From Promethearchaeota archaeon (GTDB taxonomy: Archaea > Asgardarchaeota > Lokiarchaeia > Sigyniarchaeales > SOKP01): a stretch of DNA of 32,047 nucleotides. The notes under the pieces were generated by a model. That model made no database searches. It saw only the letters and a list, made by a program, of their open reading frames with translations, and was not told the origin of the DNA. Below, piece after piece: positions 11,677-31,549 of the stretch. Location: NCBI GenBank assembly GCA_019894955.1, contig JAGXNQ010000013.1, positions 492 to 32,538 on the forward strand. The letters are read 5' to 3'. The position numbers were made by a program, and so were the translations under genes. The stretch's first letter is position 1. Every line of letters starts with the position of its first letter.

Positions 11677-11890
11677 CGTATATAGGACCCCTTAAAATGA
11701 TAATAAATTAATTTTAAATGTAAAAAATTAAAATTCCAATAATATCAATAATTGAAAGATATATTTAACCTTATTTTAAGCTATTTAAACAAAAAGGGAA
11801 TAGAATTTTGAAATTTTATATATAATAAAAATAATTCTTAATTAATTCATCAAATAACCATCAAAAAGTTAGATAGAAGTGGGTTTAATC

Positions 11891-12898
11891 ATGAAAGCCG
11901 CTGTTTTCAATGGTAAACATCTTAGAATTGAAGAAATTGAAATGCCACTCATAACAGAAACGCAAGTATTAGTAAAAGTTAAAGCAGTCGGAATATGCGG
12001 GACAGATATTGCCATATATAAAGGTCATTTACCAACTCCAACGCCATTAATACTCGGTCATGAATTTTCTGGAGAGATCGTCAAGATTGGTAGCAAAATT
12101 GATTCATCTTGGCTCAATAAGCGAGTGACCGCAGAAATCAATACCAATATTGATTTTGATTGTTTTTATTGCCAAAGAGCTATGTACACGCAATGCATTT
12201 CTCGGAAATCACTGGGTATTGATATTAATGGGGCTCTAGCTGAATATATCTCACTTGATTCCTATTTACTTCACGAAATTCCTGACAAAATATCCTTTGA
12301 AGAAGCCACGTTTATCGAACCTTTAGCAGCTGCTTATCAAACTTTCGTTATGATGCCAGTAGATAAAGATGATAAAATAATTGCTATTTTCGGACTTGGC
12401 AAGTTAGGACTCTTATTAGTCCAAGTTGCATTACTTAAGGGATTAGAAGTGATTGTAATTGATGGCTCTGATAAAAAACTTAATCTGGCTACAAAATGGG
12501 GGGCTCAACATTCAATTAATCGCTTAAAATGCACAGAAATCCCTGCAGAAATTAAAAACATAACTAAAAATATAGGCGCAGATATAGTAGTAGACACGTC
12601 TGGTAATCCAGATTCATTAAAAAATATAGTTAAGTCTTGTAGAACTAGAGGAAAGATTCACATAAAGAGCACTCATGGTCTCGATGTACCTATGAACTTG
12701 ACTGATATTGTTGTAAGGGAAATAACGTTATACAGCAGTCGATGTGGTCCATTTGAATTAGCAATCCAAGGTCTTGAGTCAGGAAAGATTCAAGTTAAAG
12801 ATTTAATCTCTAATATCTACAAACTTTCTGAAATTGAAGAAGCATTTAATTCCTATGAAAAAAATAGAGATCAAATAAAATCGATAATAAAATTTTGA
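11891..12898 (+). CDS. Zinc-dependent medium-chain alcohol/polyol dehydrogenase
   Basis: GICGTDIAIYKG, LILGHEFSGEIVKIG, CFYCQRAMYTQC lobe, Rossmann IIAIFGLGKLGLLLVQ; ATG at 11891 preferred over GTG at 11879. Confidence 0.87.
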   Translation: MKAAVFNGKHLRIEEIEMPLITETQVLVKVKAVGICGTDIAIYKGHLPTPTPLILGHEFSGEIVKIGSKIDSSWLNKRVTAEINTNIDFDCFYCQRAMYTQCISRKSLGIDINGALAEYISLDSYLLHEIPDKISFEEATFIEPLAAAYQTFVMMPVDKDDKIIAIFGLGKLGLLLVQVALLKGLEVIVIDGSDKKLNLATKWGAQHSINRLKCTEIPAEIKNITKNIGADIVVDTSGNPDSLKNIVKSCRTRGKIHIKSTHGLDVPMNLTDIVVREITLYSSRCGPFELAIQGLESGKIQVKDLISNIYKLSEIEEAFNSYEKNRDQIKSIIKF

Positions 12899-13011: not shown

Positions 13012-13947
13012 TTGACCCTCGAAGAGAATAATAACAATATATTATTTGATACAAATGTCCCTGACGACAGCCCCATAAACCAGGAACACATAAATCTGCA
13101 ATATCACTGGTATCTCAGTATTTTCATTATTATTTATTATATATCATATGTGATCCCGGGAATTGTATTCATGTACTATATCATACTGTTTTTTATTCCG
13201 AATTTCTTAAGAATAGACAGCCTTATCACGGTCTTTACGAATATGGAGTATTTATTATCCTTTTTCATGCTCCCTATTGTACTTGTATTTAGCTATTTCC
13301 TCCACTTGCTTCTTGTAGGATTAATCACACGTCTTTTTTGGAGAATTACTGAAAAAATCAGTCCATCAAAAGATGGAATTATTCCAAGGAATATAGCTTC
13401 TAAAACTGCCAATTTGTATCATATACGATCTTTCATGATAAAGTATGGAAAGAACGCGTTCATGAAGGGTATTTTGCCATGGTTATCGAATTGGTTTTTT
13501 AATTTCGTAGGAGCAAGTGTCATAGGAAAGGGCTCTACACTTGAAGAATCTGTTGTTAACGATAGAAATTCGATTGTGGGAAAAAATTGCTATATTGGGT
13601 GCAATTCTGCACTATCCAGTCATTTTGTCGAAGGAATCTTCGGTAATATTGTTTATTTTAAAATAAGATTAGGGGATAATGTAACACTCGGAGGTTTTAA
13701 CAATATTGCTCCCGGTTGTGAAATAAGTGATAACTCCTACATATTACCCATGGCAGCGTGTACTAAACACAATAAATTAAAAGGTAATAATTTTTACTTC
13801 GGGATGCCTTTACGCAGAATCTTCAAAAAGAAAATTATGGACTATTTACAAGTTACAGAGGAAGATTTAAATCGTGCAGAAGAACTTCGCATTAAACAAG
13901 ACAAGCTAAAATCTGAAATATTTAGTGAGGAAAAATTGGAGGAGTGA
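13012..13947 (+). CDS. Module A1: membrane-anchored left-handed beta-helix (hexapeptide) acyltransferase-like protein
   Basis: N-terminal TM segments then hexapeptide-like repeats (VGASVIGKGSTLEESVV...IVGKNCYIGCNSALSSHFVEG...LGDNVTLGGFNNIAPGCEI). TTG start preceded by GGAGAG. Confidence 0.75.
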   Translation: MTLEENNNNILFDTNVPDDSPINQEHINLQYHWYLSIFIIIYYISYVIPGIVFMYYIILFFIPNFLRIDSLITVFTNMEYLLSFFMLPIVLVFSYFLHLLLVGLITRLFWRITEKISPSKDGIIPRNIASKTANLYHIRSFMIKYGKNAFMKGILPWLSNWFFNFVGASVIGKGSTLEESVVNDRNSIVGKNCYIGCNSALSSHFVEGIFGNIVYFKIRLGDNVTLGGFNNIAPGCEISDNSYILPMAACTKHNKLKGNNFYFGMPLRRIFKKKIMDYLQVTEEDLNRAEELRIKQDKLKSEIFSEEKLEE

Positions 13948-13953
13948 AAAGGC

Positions 13954-14865
13954 ATGGAAAACGATAAATTAGACGATAATATAAACACTGAAGCACAAGA
14001 TAATGATGAAGTTGATGATGATTTTTCCATTGATTTTACAACAAGTTCTGCAATAAGTAGTATGGGACTTAAATTTCTCGTCCTCTATCTTCCAATTTTT
14101 TGGTTTAGTGGTCTTGTAGTTGCGACTTTTTGGTATGGATATGCTGCGGGAACAGCAGATTGGTTCATTAAATTATTATGGCTACCATTATTCGTCATAT
14201 CCCTAATGTTTCTTTTCATCTTCACGAGTTTTTTCTTTTGTAAGCTCTTGTTGATTTTAATAAACCTCATGTGCAAACCAAAAGAAGGTATATTTCGAAT
14301 TGATACTAGAGATCCAAATTTTGAATTCTGGAAATTGAGAATTGAAGTGAAGAAAATTGTATTATGGCTTTTAAGAAATTGGCCATTACCATGGTTGGAT
14401 GTCATAGCTTTTCGTTGGTTTGGGGTCAAAATGGACTTTTCAAGCCATCTCAATGATGCTTGGGTAGATTGTGAATTCATTGAATTCGGCAATAATATAA
14501 CAGTGGGTCAAGGAGCCGTATTGATGAGTTCCATGGTAGTTGGTAATTATTTAATTATAAAGAAGATAACTTTAGATGACTTTTCCCTAATAGGAGGTCA
14601 AAGTACAATAGCTCCAGGAACTCATTTTGGAAAAGATACAGTTTTAGGAGCTGTATCAGTCACTACACTAAATCAAAGATTAGAAGATGGGTGGATTTAT
14701 GGAGGAATTCCGGCCCGTAAGTTGAAAGAAAATAAATATGCGGAAGAGCGGACAGCAACTATTCATAAAATTGATGTTGATGAAGAAGAGAAAGTTGAAA
14801 TTGAATATGATATCAATATTGAGGAAGATAAAAAAAAATTTCTAAGGAGGGGTTCTAAAGAATGA
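13954..14865 (+). CDS. Module B1: two-TM left-handed beta-helix acyltransferase-like protein
   Basis: FTTSSAIS, two TMs, KPKEGIFR, hexapeptide-like repeats FGNNITVGQGAVLMSS...IGGQSTIAPGTHFGKDTVLGAVS; GGAGG upstream of ATG. Confidence 0.78.
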   Translation: MENDKLDDNINTEAQDNDEVDDDFSIDFTTSSAISSMGLKFLVLYLPIFWFSGLVVATFWYGYAAGTADWFIKLLWLPLFVISLMFLFIFTSFFFCKLLLILINLMCKPKEGIFRIDTRDPNFEFWKLRIEVKKIVLWLLRNWPLPWLDVIAFRWFGVKMDFSSHLNDAWVDCEFIEFGNNITVGQGAVLMSSMVVGNYLIIKKITLDDFSLIGGQSTIAPGTHFGKDTVLGAVSVTTLNQRLEDGWIYGGIPARKLKENKYAEERTATIHKIDVDEEEKVEIEYDINIEEDKKKFLRRGSKE

Positions 14866-15773
14866 GTGTCCCCAATTCCATGCGCGTTGGTCCTTTTTGC
14901 GCATCTGTATTGGTTAAAAGGAAATATTTGATCTTGTATATTTTATTGATTTGGATGAGCATTCTCCCAGGAATGTTGGAAATATGGGTATATTGGCAAG
15001 CTTTATGGAATGATGTACGACCACTTCATTTTTACATATATTTACCTCTTTTACTAATTGCCATTTACATTACAACTGTGTTTGCGGCAATTATTTTTAC
15101 AAAAATAGCATTGGTTTTTGTAAATATCTTTCACAAACCAAAAGAAGGAGTTTTTCTAAGAGATCGTTCAGATAGAGACTACAGATACTGGAGTCTTAGA
15201 AATACCATAAAAAAATGGCCAACTTGGCTTGCTCATAAATTTCCTTTCCCGTTCTTGGATAATTTCTGCTTCAAAATGTTTGGAGTAAAAACGACTTTTT
15301 CAAATTCCTTATTCGAAGGATGGGTTGACACGGAATTTATTACGTTTGGTAAAAATGTGGTTTGCGGGCAAGGCGCAATCATTCAATCAAGCGTTATAGT
15401 CGGTAATTTTTTAATAATAAAAAAAACTGTTATTGAGGATAATGTTAGAATAGGAGCTCATGTAATAATAATGCCTGGTACTCATATTGGAAAAAACACT
15501 ATCTTAAATACATGGTCTTCTACAAAGGTAGGACAGGAATTGGAAGAAGGGTGGATATATAATGGGGGTCCAGCCAAAAAATTCAAGAAAAATAGGTTTT
15601 TTGAAGATATTCCGATAGAAAAGCTTACTCATGAGGTAGGAGATTATGAAGGATTATTGAAGAAATATGATGACAGTAGAGAGAGATTAGAAATAAAAAA
15701 ACGCCATAGTTTAAAAGAAAGATTACATCTCGGAAAAGATAAAGAGAGGGAGAATGAAAATAAAGAAGATTGA
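14862..15773 (+). CDS. Module C1: two-TM left-handed beta-helix acyltransferase-like protein
   Basis: ATGA 4-nt overlap with B1; VPNSMRVGPF, KEGVFLRDRSDRDYRYWSLRNTIKKWP, FGKNVVCGQGAIIQSSVIVGN...IGAHVIIMPGTHIGKN. Confidence 0.78.
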   Translation: MSVPNSMRVGPFCASVLVKRKYLILYILLIWMSILPGMLEIWVYWQALWNDVRPLHFYIYLPLLLIAIYITTVFAAIIFTKIALVFVNIFHKPKEGVFLRDRSDRDYRYWSLRNTIKKWPTWLAHKFPFPFLDNFCFKMFGVKTTFSNSLFEGWVDTEFITFGKNVVCGQGAIIQSSVIVGNFLIIKKTVIEDNVRIGAHVIIMPGTHIGKNTILNTWSSTKVGQELEEGWIYNGGPAKKFKKNRFFEDIPIEKLTHEVGDYEGLLKKYDDSRERLEIKKRHSLKERLHLGKDKERENENKED

Positions 15774-15791
15774 TCCTTTTTTCATAAATAT

Positions 15792-16184
15792 CTAAAAATT
15801 TATTTTTAATTGATTCTTCAAGAATTTTATAATTTCTAAACATGTTTTTTTCCTTTCATTTATATTAGGATAAAATACTGATGGTTTTGGGCAGTCTTCA
15901 TCAAGCACGCATTTATCTTCTTTCATATTATAAATTAAAGGATAAAATTTGCATCCTTGAGGTCTAGTATCATAAATTATACACGTTTTTGTTAGCGTAT
16001 CAAAAAAGTAGCAGTGATGGTCATTGTTTCTTAATTGTAAAAAACCATCTGAACTAATATTACAAAAATCTTCTTGTTCTATTTCTCCCTCAAAATTATT
16101 TATTATTCGTTTTACATCTTCTTGAGAGAGTATCATTTCTGTTTCTAAACAGCATTTTCCGCAATCTAAACAAACGTTAGTCAT
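15792..16184 (-). CDS. YkgJ-family CxxCxxCC Zn/Fe-chelating-like protein
   Basis: CLDCGKCCLETEMILSQEDV, CYFFDTLTKTCIIYDTRPQGCKFYPL. Confidence 0.85.
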   Translation of the reverse strand: MTNVCLDCGKCCLETEMILSQEDVKRIINNFEGEIEQEDFCNISSDGFLQLRNNDHHCYFFDTLTKTCIIYDTRPQGCKFYPLIYNMKEDKCVLDEDCPKPSVFYPNINERKKTCLEIIKFLKNQLKINF

Positions 16185-16312
16185 GATGATGGATAAATTA
16201 ACTTATTATTTGCTAAATATATTCTTTCTTTTTATTATTTTTCAAGTAGTTAGATTTTAAACACTTAAAACGTTAAGACAATTTAGTAGAATTCAATAGT
16301 GAAATTATAGAA

Positions 16313-18229
16313 ATGTCAGAAGATTCCCAAGAAAAGGATTCAATTGCATTTGAAGTTCTTAAAGAAGATGTACCAAAAGAGGAGATAAACCAGCAATTTG
16401 GTTTGTATGCACTTATCTTCCTTATAAATTATTATTTATCTTGGTTATTAGCTGGTTTCATTTTTCTTTCATATTTCCTAATTGAATTCATGCCAAATGT
16501 TCTCCAAGTCACATCTTTTATCACTCTTTTCACAGATCCAAAATCATTAGTATCATTGCTATTAATGCCATTAATAGTAATAGCATGTTACGTGATTAGA
16601 ATGATATTTGTTGGCATTACAACTCGAATTTTTTGGAGAATTTCAGAAAGAATTTCCCCTAGTAAAGATGGAGTTATTCCAAGGAACATTAAATCTAAAG
16701 CTGCAGATTATTACCATCTTCGATCTTTTATGCTAAAATATGGTAAAAACCTTTTTACAAAAGGGATGTTTCCATGGCTATCGAACTGGTTCTTTAATTT
16801 CGTTGGTTCTTCAAAAATTGGTAAGGGGACAACTTTGGAAGAGTCAGTTGCTTCAGATAAACACGTGACAGTAGGAAAAAATACTTATATGGGCGTTAAT
16901 GCAACTCTAGCAAGCCATCTCGTTCAAGCCATCTTTGGGAACATCCAATATTTTAGAATGCATGTTGGAGATAATGTAACAATGGCAGCGATGAATCAAA
17001 TTGGACCAGGGAGTGAAATCATGGATGGTTCATATCTCTTACCACTCGCATCAACGAATAGACATAGTGTTTTAAAGGGAGGACATAATTATTATTTTGG
17101 CATTCCTCTCAGGAAAATATTCAAGAATAAAACAATGAATTATTTAGGAGTTACAGAGGAAGATTTAGAAAAAAATGAGAACATGCAGGTGTATTTAGAT
17201 AAAATTAAATCAAATATACCTAAAAAAGAGAGAAAATCAAAAAAAGAAAAAAAGACAATAATCGAAACTTCGACAATTAGCACCTCAGAGGAGATAAAAG
17301 AACTTAAAAAGAATAAAGTTGATATAAATGATTTAACCAAAGAGGATCTCGCCATAGATTTTACTACTTCGAGTGCAATTAGTAGGATTAATATTAAATT
17401 TCTTATAGTGTATATCCCAATTTTGTGGCTTGGAGGTCTAATTATCTCAATTTTCTGGTATGAATATACAAAAGGAGTGTGGGACTTTTCAAATCAAGCT
17501 AATTTGATTAATTCAATCATTAATAATATCAGTACGATTCTCTTTCTACCTATTGCAATCTTTATAATGATATATCTATTCATTTTAGGTGTATTATTTT
17601 TTAGTAAATTACTCTTAATATTCATCAACATGATTCATTTACCAAAAGAAGGCATTTTTTTGGCTGAAGTAGGGAATGTTGATTATGATTTTTGGATGTT
17701 TCGTACTGAATTAAAGAAAATTGCCTTATGGCTTTTAAGAAATGGACCAGTGCCATGGGCAGATGTTATAGCCTTGAAGTGGTTTGGAGTAAACATGGAT
17801 AGCTCAAGTCATTTATATGATGCATGGTGTGACGTAGATTTTGTCTCTATTGGGAGGAAAGTGCTTATCGGCCAAGGGGCCACAATAATGTCATCCATGG
17901 TAATTGGAAAATATTTGATTATTAAGCGTGTAGTATTTGATGATTATGTAATGGTTGGCGGTCATACCACTATTGCACCAGGTACAATTATGGGACATGA
18001 TTCTGTTATAGGTGCAATCAGTTCCACTACTTATAATCGTGTTCTTGACTCGAATTACATATATTTTGGAATTCCAGCTATTCCGTTAAAAGAAAATAAA
18101 TATGCTGAAGAAAGAAGAGATATCGTTATAAAAAGACATGTAGATGAATCTAAAAAAATGGAAGAAACCCATGAAGTTAATATTGATGAAGACAAAAAGA
18201 AGTATATTAAAACTGGAGATGATGAGTGA
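16313..18229 (+). CDS. Fused modules A2-B2: tandem membrane-anchored left-handed beta-helix acyltransferase-like protein
   Basis: N-half paralogous to 13012..13947, C-half paralogous to 13954..14865, joined by a charged Lys/Glu-rich linker. Confidence 0.8.
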   Translation: MSEDSQEKDSIAFEVLKEDVPKEEINQQFGLYALIFLINYYLSWLLAGFIFLSYFLIEFMPNVLQVTSFITLFTDPKSLVSLLLMPLIVIACYVIRMIFVGITTRIFWRISERISPSKDGVIPRNIKSKAADYYHLRSFMLKYGKNLFTKGMFPWLSNWFFNFVGSSKIGKGTTLEESVASDKHVTVGKNTYMGVNATLASHLVQAIFGNIQYFRMHVGDNVTMAAMNQIGPGSEIMDGSYLLPLASTNRHSVLKGGHNYYFGIPLRKIFKNKTMNYLGVTEEDLEKNENMQVYLDKIKSNIPKKERKSKKEKKTIIETSTISTSEEIKELKKNKVDINDLTKEDLAIDFTTSSAISRINIKFLIVYIPILWLGGLIISIFWYEYTKGVWDFSNQANLINSIINNISTILFLPIAIFIMIYLFILGVLFFSKLLLIFINMIHLPKEGIFLAEVGNVDYDFWMFRTELKKIALWLLRNGPVPWADVIALKWFGVNMDSSSHLYDAWCDVDFVSIGRKVLIGQGATIMSSMVIGKYLIIKRVVFDDYVMVGGHTTIAPGTIMGHDSVIGAISSTTYNRVLDSNYIYFGIPAIPLKENKYAEERRDIVIKRHVDESKKMEETHEVNIDEDKKKYIKTGDDE

Positions 18230-19188
18230 AAATCGTGTCAATTCCAAATTCCATGAGGGTTGGTCCCTTTCTACCCACAGTTTTAGTAAAGAAGAGATAT
18301 TTAATTTTTTACATCCTGATAATTTGGCTAAGTGCAATTCCACTTTTTATTGAATTTTGGGTTTATTATCGTTTTGTTTGGAGTCCTGTACGACCTATTT
18401 TCTTCTTTATATATCTAGCCTTATTATTATTACCAATGTATTTGACTTTAGCATTTTTTGGAATGTTTTGGGCTAAATTTTTCTTAGTCATTGTTAATTG
18501 GATTCATATACCACGTGAAGGTGTCTTTTTGCGTCATCCCTCAGATAAAGACTATAGATATTGGTCATTACGGAATACGATAAAAAGATGGCCTTTTTGG
18601 GTTTGTCATCGGTTTCCATTTCCATTTTTAGATAATGTATGCTTTAAGGTTTTTAATGTTAAGACAAAATTTTCTAATTCATTGTTTGAAGGATGGGTGG
18701 ATACAGAATTTATATCCTTTGGAAATAATGTAGTTTGTGGTCAAGGTGCAATTATTCAATCAAGTGTTATAATAGGAAATCTCTTGATAATTAGGAAAAC
18801 CATTATAGAAGATGATGTTCGCATTGGATCTCATGCAATAGTCATGCCTGGAACGCACATTGGAAATAGAAGTGTGTTAGCAGCAAATTCGGTGACAACA
18901 GTAGGACAAGTTTTAAAAGACGATTGGATTTATGTTGGCATTCCATGCAAAGAATTTAAACAAAATTGGTTTTTTGAAGATGGTTTAGAAGATAAACTAG
19001 GTGTAGTAGAAGATGTTGATGCATTATTGGGAAAATATAATGAAATCATTACTAAAGTTAGATGGGATGAAAATCTCACCTTAAAAGAACGTAAAGCGAT
19101 AAAAAAGCAACAAAAAGAAGAAGAAGAACGTCGATGGGAGCGTAGTAAGGAAATGGATGAGAAAAAACGAGAAGACCTTTTAGGATAA
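18226..19188 (+). CDS. Module C2: two-TM left-handed beta-helix acyltransferase-like protein
   Basis: GTGA 4-nt overlap with AB2; close paralog of C1 (SLFEGWVDTEFI.FG.NVVCGQGAIIQSSVI.GN). Confidence 0.8.
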   Translation: MKIVSIPNSMRVGPFLPTVLVKKRYLIFYILIIWLSAIPLFIEFWVYYRFVWSPVRPIFFFIYLALLLLPMYLTLAFFGMFWAKFFLVIVNWIHIPREGVFLRHPSDKDYRYWSLRNTIKRWPFWVCHRFPFPFLDNVCFKVFNVKTKFSNSLFEGWVDTEFISFGNNVVCGQGAIIQSSVIIGNLLIIRKTIIEDDVRIGSHAIVMPGTHIGNRSVLAANSVTTVGQVLKDDWIYVGIPCKEFKQNWFFEDGLEDKLGVVEDVDALLGKYNEIITKVRWDENLTLKERKAIKKQQKEEEERRWERSKEMDEKKREDLLG

Positions 19189-22323: not shown

Positions 22324-23358
22324 ATGAATCAAGTGGAATATAAAGGTGATACTTATGAAGTTCAAAAAGGTTTTCTGGATTTAGGATTATTGGAAATAAC
22401 GAACATTGATGATATTCATGGATTAGATACTCTTGACATTACACATTTAGAATTAAGTTCAAATGAATTCACGGAAATTAAAGGATTAGATTCACTTACA
22501 TCATTAGAAATATTAAATTGCAGTAGTAATCAATTAACACAGATATCAGGGTTATCACAACTAAAAAATCTAAAAATTTTGCATTTAGCATCGAATCAAT
22601 TATCAAAAATTGAAGGATTAGAGAATCTTTCATCATTAGAAGAATTATACCTGCGAGGAAACCAAATACCAACTTTAACTGGACTTGATGGATTGAAATC
22701 TCTGCAAAAGTTAGATCTATCCTGGAATGCAATCTCAAAAATCCAAGGACTAGATACATTAATTGAATTAGAAGTACTATGGATTGCTGGAAATCAAATC
22801 AAAAAAATTGAAGGATTAGATAAATTGGAAAATCTGAAGATTTTAAATCTAGCTGGAAATGAAATATCTCAACTTGAAAATGTAGATCATCTTTCAAATT
22901 TGAAAGAATTATATATCAACGATAATAAGCTGAAGAAAATTAATAATTTGGAACATCTTACAGATTTAGAAACATTATGGGTAACTTCTAATAAAATTAG
23001 AGAAATTGAAGGGCTTGAAAATAGTACTAACCTACAACTTCTAAACTTGAAAGACAATAATATCGATGAAATTAAGGGATTATACCCCTTGGTAAATTTA
23101 AGTAAGTTATTTCTCTCTGGAAATAATATAGATCATATTAAAGGGCTTGAAACTCTTCAAGATTTAGAGACTTTAGATATAGGAGATAATAACATATCTC
23201 ACATTAGGGGTTTAGAATCATTAATTAATTTAAAAGATTTATGGCTTTATGGAAATAATATAGATCCGGATTTAATAAAGCAAATGGGAGGATTAGATTC
23301 TGGAGGATGTGCATTTGATGCATCTAAATTCGTACAATACTGCCTAGTTAATCTATAA
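22324..23358 (+). CDS. SDS22-like leucine-rich repeat protein, about 13 repeats of 22 aa
   Basis: Regular 22-aa repeats such as GLENLSSLEELYLRGNQIPTLT / GLDGLKSLQKLDLSWNAISKIQ; no signal peptide. Confidence 0.93.
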   Translation: MNQVEYKGDTYEVQKGFLDLGLLEITNIDDIHGLDTLDITHLELSSNEFTEIKGLDSLTSLEILNCSSNQLTQISGLSQLKNLKILHLASNQLSKIEGLENLSSLEELYLRGNQIPTLTGLDGLKSLQKLDLSWNAISKIQGLDTLIELEVLWIAGNQIKKIEGLDKLENLKILNLAGNEISQLENVDHLSNLKELYINDNKLKKINNLEHLTDLETLWVTSNKIREIEGLENSTNLQLLNLKDNNIDEIKGLYPLVNLSKLFLSGNNIDHIKGLETLQDLETLDIGDNNISHIRGLESLINLKDLWLYGNNIDPDLIKQMGGLDSGGCAFDASKFVQYCLVNL

Positions 23359-29392: not shown

Positions 29393-31549
29393 ATGGATGA
29401 AAATTCGAAAAATCATATAAGAAATTTAAGGAATAATAACTGGAACCGATGGTGGCGTATTCCAAGGCTATTCCTCTATTTTTTTGGGATATTTACGTTT
29501 TTTTGGTATTTTTGGTCAATTATTGGTTTGTTGATTGGATTAATTCTATTTATCTTATCAAAGGATATTGCTTGGAAAAGAAATGGAATCTTACTCACGT
29601 ATTCCATTGCGTTTATAACTTTATTAGTTTTCTACTATAAAGCTTTTTCCCCTCTAAATTTAGCAATCTGGTCAGGTTTAGGTATATTTCTCTCATTTGC
29701 TATATCATTGTTAATAATAGCTATTCTAAAGAAGAAATTTGGATTTATAAAAAACTCAAAATCTAAAATAATAAACTCTTATGAAAGATTCTCAAGAAAA
29801 GCTAGAATCGTAGCTCGAATTATTACAATCATAATCCCGTTGATTTCATGGTCAATGTTAAGTATTGATGTTGAAGTCATATTTGACAACAGCCCTCGTT
29901 TGCTCTGGATACATGCTCCTTCTACTGTTAATACAAATGAAACATTTGAACTTGCGGTAGAAGCGTGGGATCAGTTTGAAAGGTTAAGTGCTACCTATAT
30001 TGGGATTGTAAGTTTTTCATTACTTTCTATCAATCTTACAACTTATACAGAAATATTTGCACCAATTGCTTCCCTTCCAGATGATTACAGTTTTACGGGT
30101 CAAATATTTGGATCAGATATCGCCTATGAAATAAAAGATGGAAAAGATAATGGTATTCATATTTTTGATATAAGTATTGAGACCCCAGGCATCCACTATG
30201 TTTTAGTTAATGAGAGCTATACGAATAATTTATACTTCAGCAATCCTATTATAGTAAAAAATCAAACGAATAATGAAAAAAATATCGTTTGGGGAGATCT
30301 TCATACTCACACTGGACTTTCAGATGGAACCGGTACCCTTGAACATTCATATTATTACGCTCGTTATATCGCTCGTTTGGATTTTAATGCGATTACCGAT
30401 CATGGTGAAATCTTAATGTGGAATCCAAGTTCCTTGAATTATTTAGAATCAGTAACCAATAATGCTTATGCCTCTGGCGATTTTGTAACATTTCATGGAA
30501 TTGAATGGACACAAGTAAAAACGGGGCATTACACCTGCATTTTTAGTGGAAATCAATTATTGAAAGAACCACTCCTCTCATATATATTGGTTCCGACAAC
30601 TCAAGATTTATGGAATACGCTTGATTCTTTCACGCAAAGTACGGGAGCTAGAGCTTTAGCATTACCTCATCACACCACTAAGAGAGCTTATCCACAGGAT
30701 TGGATCTATATAAATCCAAAATATGTTAAAATTGCCGAAGTTTCTTCGGTTCATGGTGATTTTTTATTCGAACATGGAAATGAGCTGAATTATCGAGGAG
30801 CTATTGATCCACCTCCCCTTCATACCCGGGGTTCCTCAATAATGGATGCATTCACGATGGGATATAGGATGACATTATATAGCTCGAGTGACGAACATGA
30901 TGGACATCCAGGTCACAGTTTAAGCCATACAAGGGCTTATATTGGTCACCAACGTCCATTTAGTACTTGGCTTACGAGAAATGAACATCCTTATCCGGGA
31001 GGCTTAACAGCTGCATTTGTTGACAATCTAACTCGTGAAGGTGTTTTTTCAGGATTAGAAAATCAGAGGATTTATGCAAATTCTGATCATGGCAGACCCA
31101 TACTTATTTTCAGTATTAATGGAACAAAAGTGGGAGATGGTTCTACACTTAATGTGAATAACCAAAATTCTCATAGATTAATAAACATTTTTCTAGCTCA
31201 AGATGGTGCTCCAGTAGCTAAAATGTCTGAAGCCGCTTCTGTTACTGCTAATTGGGATCCTAATTGGGAAGGTGCTATTGAAATAATGAAAAATGGAGAA
31301 TTGTGGCAATCAAGAGACATATTAAGCCCCATTGCCAACGTTTCTATTGTTGATACTACTCCAATTACCGGAACAACTTATGAACCTAATTGTGTTGAAA
31401 TTGATGGTCAATTTTATGTCAATCAAGATAGTGATAATCCAATAATTCCGAACAACTTGAATACAAATGGATTTGATTATTATCTTGTCCGATTCGTCGG
31501 AGATAACGGCAGAATGAGCTGGGTAGGACCAATATGGGTTGAATATTAA
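29393..31549 (+). CDS. Membrane protein with PHP/DUF3604-like phosphoesterase domain
   Basis: N-terminal TM helices, then VWGDLHTHTGLSDGTGTLEHSYYYARYIARLDFNAITDHGE, HGIEWTQ, LALPHHTTK, SSSDEHDGHPGHS. Confidence 0.82.
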   Translation: MDENSKNHIRNLRNNNWNRWWRIPRLFLYFFGIFTFFWYFWSIIGLLIGLILFILSKDIAWKRNGILLTYSIAFITLLVFYYKAFSPLNLAIWSGLGIFLSFAISLLIIAILKKKFGFIKNSKSKIINSYERFSRKARIVARIITIIIPLISWSMLSIDVEVIFDNSPRLLWIHAPSTVNTNETFELAVEAWDQFERLSATYIGIVSFSLLSINLTTYTEIFAPIASLPDDYSFTGQIFGSDIAYEIKDGKDNGIHIFDISIETPGIHYVLVNESYTNNLYFSNPIIVKNQTNNEKNIVWGDLHTHTGLSDGTGTLEHSYYYARYIARLDFNAITDHGEILMWNPSSLNYLESVTNNAYASGDFVTFHGIEWTQVKTGHYTCIFSGNQLLKEPLLSYILVPTTQDLWNTLDSFTQSTGARALALPHHTTKRAYPQDWIYINPKYVKIAEVSSVHGDFLFEHGNELNYRGAIDPPPLHTRGSSIMDAFTMGYRMTLYSSSDEHDGHPGHSLSHTRAYIGHQRPFSTWLTRNEHPYPGGLTAAFVDNLTREGVFSGLENQRIYANSDHGRPILIFSINGTKVGDGSTLNVNNQNSHRLINIFLAQDGAPVAKMSEAASVTANWDPNWEGAIEIMKNGELWQSRDILSPIANVSIVDTTPITGTTYEPNCVEIDGQFYVNQDSDNPIIPNNLNTNGFDYYLVRFVGDNGRMSWVGPIWVEY

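Follow-up and report, generated by a model that had tools for sequence, protein, structure and literature searches.

Soluble acyltransferases with a left-handed beta-helix (LbH), such as galactoside and maltose O-acetyltransferases, AntD and WcaF, are homotrimers that have no transmembrane (TM) helices and carry three active sites per trimer. The heptaprenylglyceryl phosphate O-acetyltransferase YvoF (NCBIfam NF058585) is likewise an LbH acetyltransferase, encoded by a single gene, and acts on archaeal-type ether lipids. The C-terminal domain of the Pls and PosA enzymes (TIGR02353), the part responsible for poly-lysine polymerisation in bacteria, has three modules of two TM helices and an LbH, giving six TM helices in all. 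In the modelled PosA domain, three five-turn LbH prisms with approximately three-fold symmetry are seated on these six helices (PMC10522769). No solved structure of the Pls C-terminal domain was found in the PDB, in which only adenylation and other NRPS domains are represented, and no active site of the Pls/PosA polymerisation domain is defined in the literature found.

The locus examined here lies in a window of 32,047 nucleotides (the whole stretch of DNA that was analysed) from a Lokiarchaeal MAG of 2.77 Mb and 88% completeness. An earlier note on this DNA had described a duplicated cassette, A1-B1-C1 followed by AB2-C2, in which each module joins TM segments to an LbH domain and each set has six TM helices. 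The five open reading frames are indeed present in that arrangement, all on the forward strand, and are listed with two accompanying genes:

11879..12898, + strand: Zn-dependent threonine/alcohol dehydrogenase-like gene, upstream of A; a recurrent neighbour
13012..13947, + strand: A1, 2 TM + LbH module; SSHFVEG motif with putative catalytic His
13954..14865, + strand: B1, 2 TM + LbH module; His position replaced
14862..15773, + strand: C1, 2 TM + LbH module without the His; C-terminal tail charged
15792..16184, - strand: CxxCxxCC metal-binding protein (PF03692), a small gene separating the sets A1-B1-C1 and AB2-C2
16313..18229, + strand: AB2, in which a second A module (approximately residues 1-325, with the His contained in ASHLVQA) is naturally fused to a second B module (approximately residues 326-638)
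18226..19188, + strand: C2, second C module

B1 and C1 overlap by 4 bp, as do AB2 and C2. Hydropathy and an AF2 model both give two N-terminal TM helices per module, and hence six per A+B+C, and Pfam Hexapep (PF00132) is over its cut-off in A1, C1, AB2 and C2, and marginal in B1; the AF2 model and Foldseek comparisons agree with PF00132 in placing the modules among LbH proteins, with hexapeptide repeats and the corresponding fold. Lys and Arg are commoner after TM2 than in the TM1-TM2 loop, which fits a cytosolic location of the LbH. Between the sets, identity is 52% for A1/A2, 50% for B1/B2 and 59% for C1/C2, while B and C share 40% with each other and 23-26% with A; judged by sequence, the second set is an old duplicate of the first. 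The intervening CxxCxxCC gene is unrelated and is a recurrent neighbour of such loci.

The kinship with Pls that the earlier note proposed was examined initially at the level of family profiles. TIGR02353 was the best NCBIfam family for B1, C1 and C2 (E 2.5e-9 to 1.7e-11), scoring 40.6 bits versus 28.5 for the next family in B1, 43.2 versus 29.7 in C1 (ahead by 13 bits) and 36.1 versus 29.9 in C2, and was matched by 34 of the 34 B and C proteins tested. It ranked second in AB2, behind NF058585, and its match to A1 was negligible (E 0.02); the link of A to TIGR02353 is weak and runs through the relation of A to C and to the stand-alone modules described below. The curated cut-off for TIGR02353 is 423 bits over 695 positions, and the cassette, unlike Pls/PosA, scores far below it. 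Indeed, the best score in the source genome was 50 bits, and no match over the cut-off, i.e. no true Pls, was found in any of the 197 Asgard genomes sampled.

Since ordinary LbH similarity inflates TIGR02353 values, bridging modules were sought. Stand-alone 2 TM-LbH modules of approximately 250 aa, of the type found in Hodarchaeia and also present in other Asgard archaea (e.g. P0002 and G080:C31), match TIGR02353 with an E-value of 1.7e-26 over positions 5-226, TM part included. C (1e-24) and Pls module 2 (2e-27) both align with the profile of these modules along its entire length, and both are still matched when the N-terminal parts are used by themselves (1e-5 and 4e-5, respectively). Direct comparison of the N-terminal parts (TM and linker) of A, B and C with those of Pls gave no significant match, and homology in this region is reached only through the stand-alone modules. 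By this route the cassette modules fall within a Pls-type 2 TM-LbH module superfamily, defined here by homology over the TM hairpin, the linker and the LbH. These profile alignments, together with the models considered next, support homology between A, B and C and the triplet of modules that makes up the C-terminal domain of Pls/PosA.

AB2 was modelled with AF2 from 69 sequences (mean pLDDT 74, with core blocks mostly at 80-93; pTM 0.65). Each module is predicted to comprise two TM helices, then a strand and a pair of helices, and finally an LbH into which two strands are inserted. The order of elements is the same in the PosA domain, which is also a model. Fold searches gave no match to the TM part, and with the LbH part retrieved soluble-type enzymes, namely AntD, maltose O-acetyltransferase and carbonic anhydrases. 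That only soluble-type solved structures were matched, and that LbH repeats cross-match many families, could be taken to mean that the cassette encodes ordinary hexapeptide transferases, membrane-anchored and clustered by happenstance, with neither a special relation to Pls nor hetero-assembly. However, most modules have TIGR02353 as their best family, and the alignment of the bridging modules extends over the TM part. Moreover, in the phylum of a Bathyarchaeal MAG, only one of 151 genomes has a TIGR02353 match at 1e-12, indicating that such matches are not generic. This explanation is considered very unlikely, also in view of the distribution of a single His residue and of the gene order, as follows.

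A joint alignment of 244 modules (A, B, C, the further types X and Y, stand-alone modules and Pls modules 1-3) revealed one column that holds His in all sequences of A (67/67), X (20/20), the stand-alone type (12/12) and Pls module 3 (10/10), and in none of the B (0/58), C (0/38), Y (0/19), Pls module 1 (0/10) or Pls module 2 (0/10) sequences; B modules have Ser there in 57 of 58 cases. The conserved residue is the His of THLFEDR in Pls module 3 and of SHFVEG and ASHLVQ in the cassette, so that the motif parallel drawn in the earlier note falls in the same alignment column. The cassette thus shares with Pls/PosA the trait of an invariant His motif in one module of three, with the difference that the His module is first (A) in the cassette and third in Pls. 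The stand-alone modules have the same architecture and the same His, always kept, but are encoded by single genes and are presumably homotrimeric. Soluble LbH acyltransferases also have a similar-looking His-containing insertion between LbH coils, and the column in A is, we assume, where the general base of an LbH acetyltransferase would be looked for (His115 in galactoside acetyltransferase); the phmmer alignment of a stand-alone module to PDB relatives did not place the His unambiguously. By this analogy the His of A is a putative catalytic residue, and there would be one such His per trimer, on A. Although the His is confined to the third module of Pls, all three are reported to be needed for activity or peptide-bond formation (PMC4668381), as would be expected if they formed a single composite enzyme.

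With regard to gene order, an A-profile match at 1e-10 was obtained in 67 of the 197 sampled Asgard genomes, including every listed genome of the same genus and the same family and several of the same order. Some loci of one genome had been fetched by two routes, and the modules of the 60-odd Lokiarchaeal loci were accordingly deduplicated, to 257 distinct modules. Among these, the prevalent neighbour pairs were B.C (55), fused A-B (50), A.B (36) and A.A (11), followed by fused C-A, then B (6), B.A between A-B tandems (5), A.C (2), B-B (1) and X.Y (1); the order C.B was never found. The C-A fusions followed by B amount to A-B-C in cyclically permuted order; the six are distinct, and the arrangement occurs in the source genome on C34. 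The modules are spread over two or three polypeptides, fusions being mostly A-B or C-A, and no A-B-C on one polypeptide was found among the Lokiarchaeal loci examined. The X.Y pair is present in the source genome (C217) and has relatives in 53 of 61 family genomes. Since the order is kept in dozens of other Lokiarchaeal loci, the A-B-C cassette is not a product of chance; the neighbour pattern is that expected of subunits of one complex and indicates an obligate assembly of several subunits, a multi-subunit form having been supposed in the earlier note. Indeed, the A-B-C order and the confinement of His loss to B and C imply co-assembly, contrary to a fortuitous cluster of ordinary transferases. 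Clusters of the form A.A.A.B.C occur in some loci, and the stoichiometry need not be 1:1:1 in every genome.

The Bathyarchaeal match (L111), a lone A gene located where a 2.7-kb contig ends, was treated as likely mis-binning. A Hodarchaeum contig (L110) is possibly mis-binned too.

The evolutionary relation between cassette and Pls was addressed with a quick ML tree of 90 modules, which had the form ((((((B,C),Y),X),A),S),(Pls1,2,3)), in which the grouping of the Pls modules had an SH-aLRT value of 98 and that of A/B/C/X/Y a value of 97; C was not cleanly one clade. Direct descent from Pls, with A orthologous to Pls module 3, was weakly disfavoured, the corresponding clade being rejected at an AU p of 0.034, a modest result from a short, compositionally uneven alignment that is subject to a long-branch caveat. 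Since the modules cluster by lineage, the tripling appears to be independent. The likeliest course is that an ancestral His-bearing single module was tripled and lost the His from two of its three copies, once in Pls and once in Lokiarchaeia. Of the kinship claimed in the earlier note, homology of the modules is thus upheld by the NCBIfam ranking, the bridging modules, the order of elements and the His pattern, and descent as a split Pls C-terminal domain is not; the cassette falls outside Pls and, to all appearance, was not derived from it.

Taken together, the data establish the anatomy of the modules, their homology to those of Pls, the A-B-C linkage and the His pattern, and the cassette is best described as encoding a split, hetero-trimeric LbH acyltransferase of the membrane. 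We infer, as the probable reading though by no means a secure one, that this enzyme requires A, B and C together and has its active site on A, the trimer, catalytic site and topology all being part of that inference. A, B and C would be paralogous subunits of one membrane-embedded enzyme, each contributing a TM hairpin, an LbH prism and, between them, a short linker made up of a strand and a pair of helices. The three prisms would pack as a heterotrimer above the six TM helices, in the manner of the modelled single-chain Pls/PosA domain. The His kept only in A presumably corresponds to the general base of LbH acetyltransferases of the galactoside O-acetyltransferase type, and, since A alone keeps it, there would be one acyl-transfer site per trimer. 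This site may be located at the interface of A with a neighbouring subunit, facing the cytosol near the membrane surface, whereas B and C, degenerate at the His position, are probably structural and involved in substrate binding. The acyl group would pass from a soluble activated donor, most likely acyl-CoA although an adenylate or aminoacyl donor is conceivable, to a membrane-borne acceptor.

A specific case of this acyltransferase explanation is that the complex is a YvoF-like O- or N-acetyltransferase of archaeal membrane lipids or lipid-linked glycans, an identification that can be offered only tentatively. Among the 34 B and C proteins, 32 matched NF058585, a number exceeded only by TIGR02353, and this family ranked first for AB2; TM anchoring would place the site at the membrane, and in vitro the haloarchaeal YvoF transfers acetyl to an ether lipid (PMC9179154). 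Conversely, the NF058585 profile, of 172 positions, lacks an N-terminal TM hairpin, and the similarity spans the LbH only and is lower than that to TIGR02353 for most members tested. The best score in the window (51.7 bits, AB2, in two stretches) is far under the NF058585 cut-off of 300, and none of the recurrent neighbours was recognised as a gene of lipid synthesis.

Those neighbours comprise a CxxCxxCC protein (42 loci), the Zn dehydrogenase (37), a carbon-nitrogen hydrolase (24), an AlaX-like protein (24), an LRR protein (18) and a DUF6512 membrane protein (16). The counts for these and for the neighbour described next include twice-fetched loci and closely related genomes and so overstate independence. 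No substrate was identified from the gene neighbourhood of the A-B-C loci. An additional neighbour, in 17 loci, is a 550-aa protein with motifs resembling those of adenylate-forming enzymes (CHTSGTTNS, SEIGP, PKGILKKWP), the gene for which is present in 29 of 61 family genomes and was not found in the source genome. Its P-loop aligns marginally with A-domains (profile E 0.002), and a poor AF2 model (pLDDT 50) has an acyl-CoA ligase as its best fold match (E 0.065, not significant), with a GH3 amidosynthetase and a phenylacetate-CoA ligase domain lower in the ranking. Since no Pfam, NCBIfam or PDB profile matched this protein and the model is poor, its identity as an adenylate-former is regarded as suggestive. 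Long-chain acyl-CoA synthetase-like genes adjoin a few loci, and AMP-binding enzymes are common in the source genome (11 matches).

These neighbours bear on whether the cassette is a split, carrier-free Pls, in which the trimer would condense amino acids activated by a separate adenylating enzyme, through isopeptide or peptide bonds, into a membrane-linked peptide or poly-amino acid. The homology to the polymerisation domain, the adenylate-former-like neighbour and the acyl-CoA synthetase-like genes all speak in its favour. However, the five cassette ORFs consist of TM and LbH modules only and lack the adenylation and carrier domains of the Pls/PosA chain, the earlier note having likewise seen neither in the window, and the carrier domain PF00550 was found neither in the source genome nor in 58 of 61 family genomes, being present in three, by a search whose control was positive in 11 of 14 cases. 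Survey of other genomes turned up a recurrent adenylation-like neighbour, though one not found in the source genome, and carriers essentially not at all; for the latter reason the peptide linkage floated in the earlier note is unsupported. Moreover, since the tripling is apparently independent, Pls chemistry cannot be assumed, and a split Pls is considered unlikely. It is similarly improbable, perhaps slightly more so, that Lokiarchaeia have a carrier-free, amide-forming A:B:C membrane trimer, akin to the Pls polymerisation domain but arisen independently, which with one site on A would turn acyl- or aminoacyl-adenylates from the adenylate-former-like neighbour, or acyl-CoAs, into a membrane-linked product.

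Returning to the preferred A:B:C acyltransferase and its relatives, the stand-alone and split archaeal forms suggest that the Pls/PosA polymerisation domain descends from a membrane-bound LbH acyltransferase. They also point to the module-3 His (THLFEDR) as a candidate key residue of Pls, and suggest that on two occasions, in bacteria and in Lokiarchaea, the units of such a trimer ceased to be equivalent, leaving one active site. Finally, several A/B/C-type modules are present in nearly all sampled genomes of the Lokiarchaeal family to which the source genome belongs, indicating that the product is probably an important membrane component in these archaea, which stand near the origin of eukaryotes.

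Among the archaeal relatives found, those nearest to the modules of the bacterial poly-lysine synthetase Pls were stand-alone proteins with two TM segments and a left-handed beta-helix (LbH), which matched the Pls/PosA family TIGR02353 at 1.7e-26.

L066:10159-10920 (genome G080, contig C31): stand-alone 2 TM-LbH module P0002, 250 aa
L011:4340-5920 (the window's genome, contig C217): X.Y pair, two-module relative

Modules of the P0002 type occur in Hodarchaeia-type genomes, with further relatives at L124-L134, L177 and L181, and the putative catalytic His is kept in every stand-alone module. Within the X.Y pair, which is adjoined by a metallophosphoesterase gene, the His is present in X and absent from Y; X-like genes were found in 53 of the 61 genomes of this Lokiarchaeal family.

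At L050, L051, L097, L098, L100 and L108, three A genes in series precede a single B and a single C, an arrangement suggesting that the A subunits are exchangeable.

L012:2150-3760 (the window's genome, contig C34): C-A fusion frame

The conserved N-terminus of this frame lacks an ATG, GTG or TTG start, the sequence there reading TGA, then AAT ATC ATA TCT ATT; the earliest listed ATG, at 2240, lies within TM1.

L099:1592-3256 and 16 other loci: 550-aa recurrent neighbour
Window, 22324-23358: LRR protein, regular 22-residue repeats

The 550-aa neighbour carries adenylate-former-like motifs (CHTSGTTNS, SEIGP and PKGILKKWP) and had no profile matches in Pfam, NCBIfam or PDB; it possibly represents an ANL-like family so far unrecognised. 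The LRR protein recurs at 18 loci, on the downstream side of the cassette. The window also encodes, at 29393-31549, a membrane protein of 718 aa in which a PHP-like motif, WGDLHTHTGLSDG, occurs.
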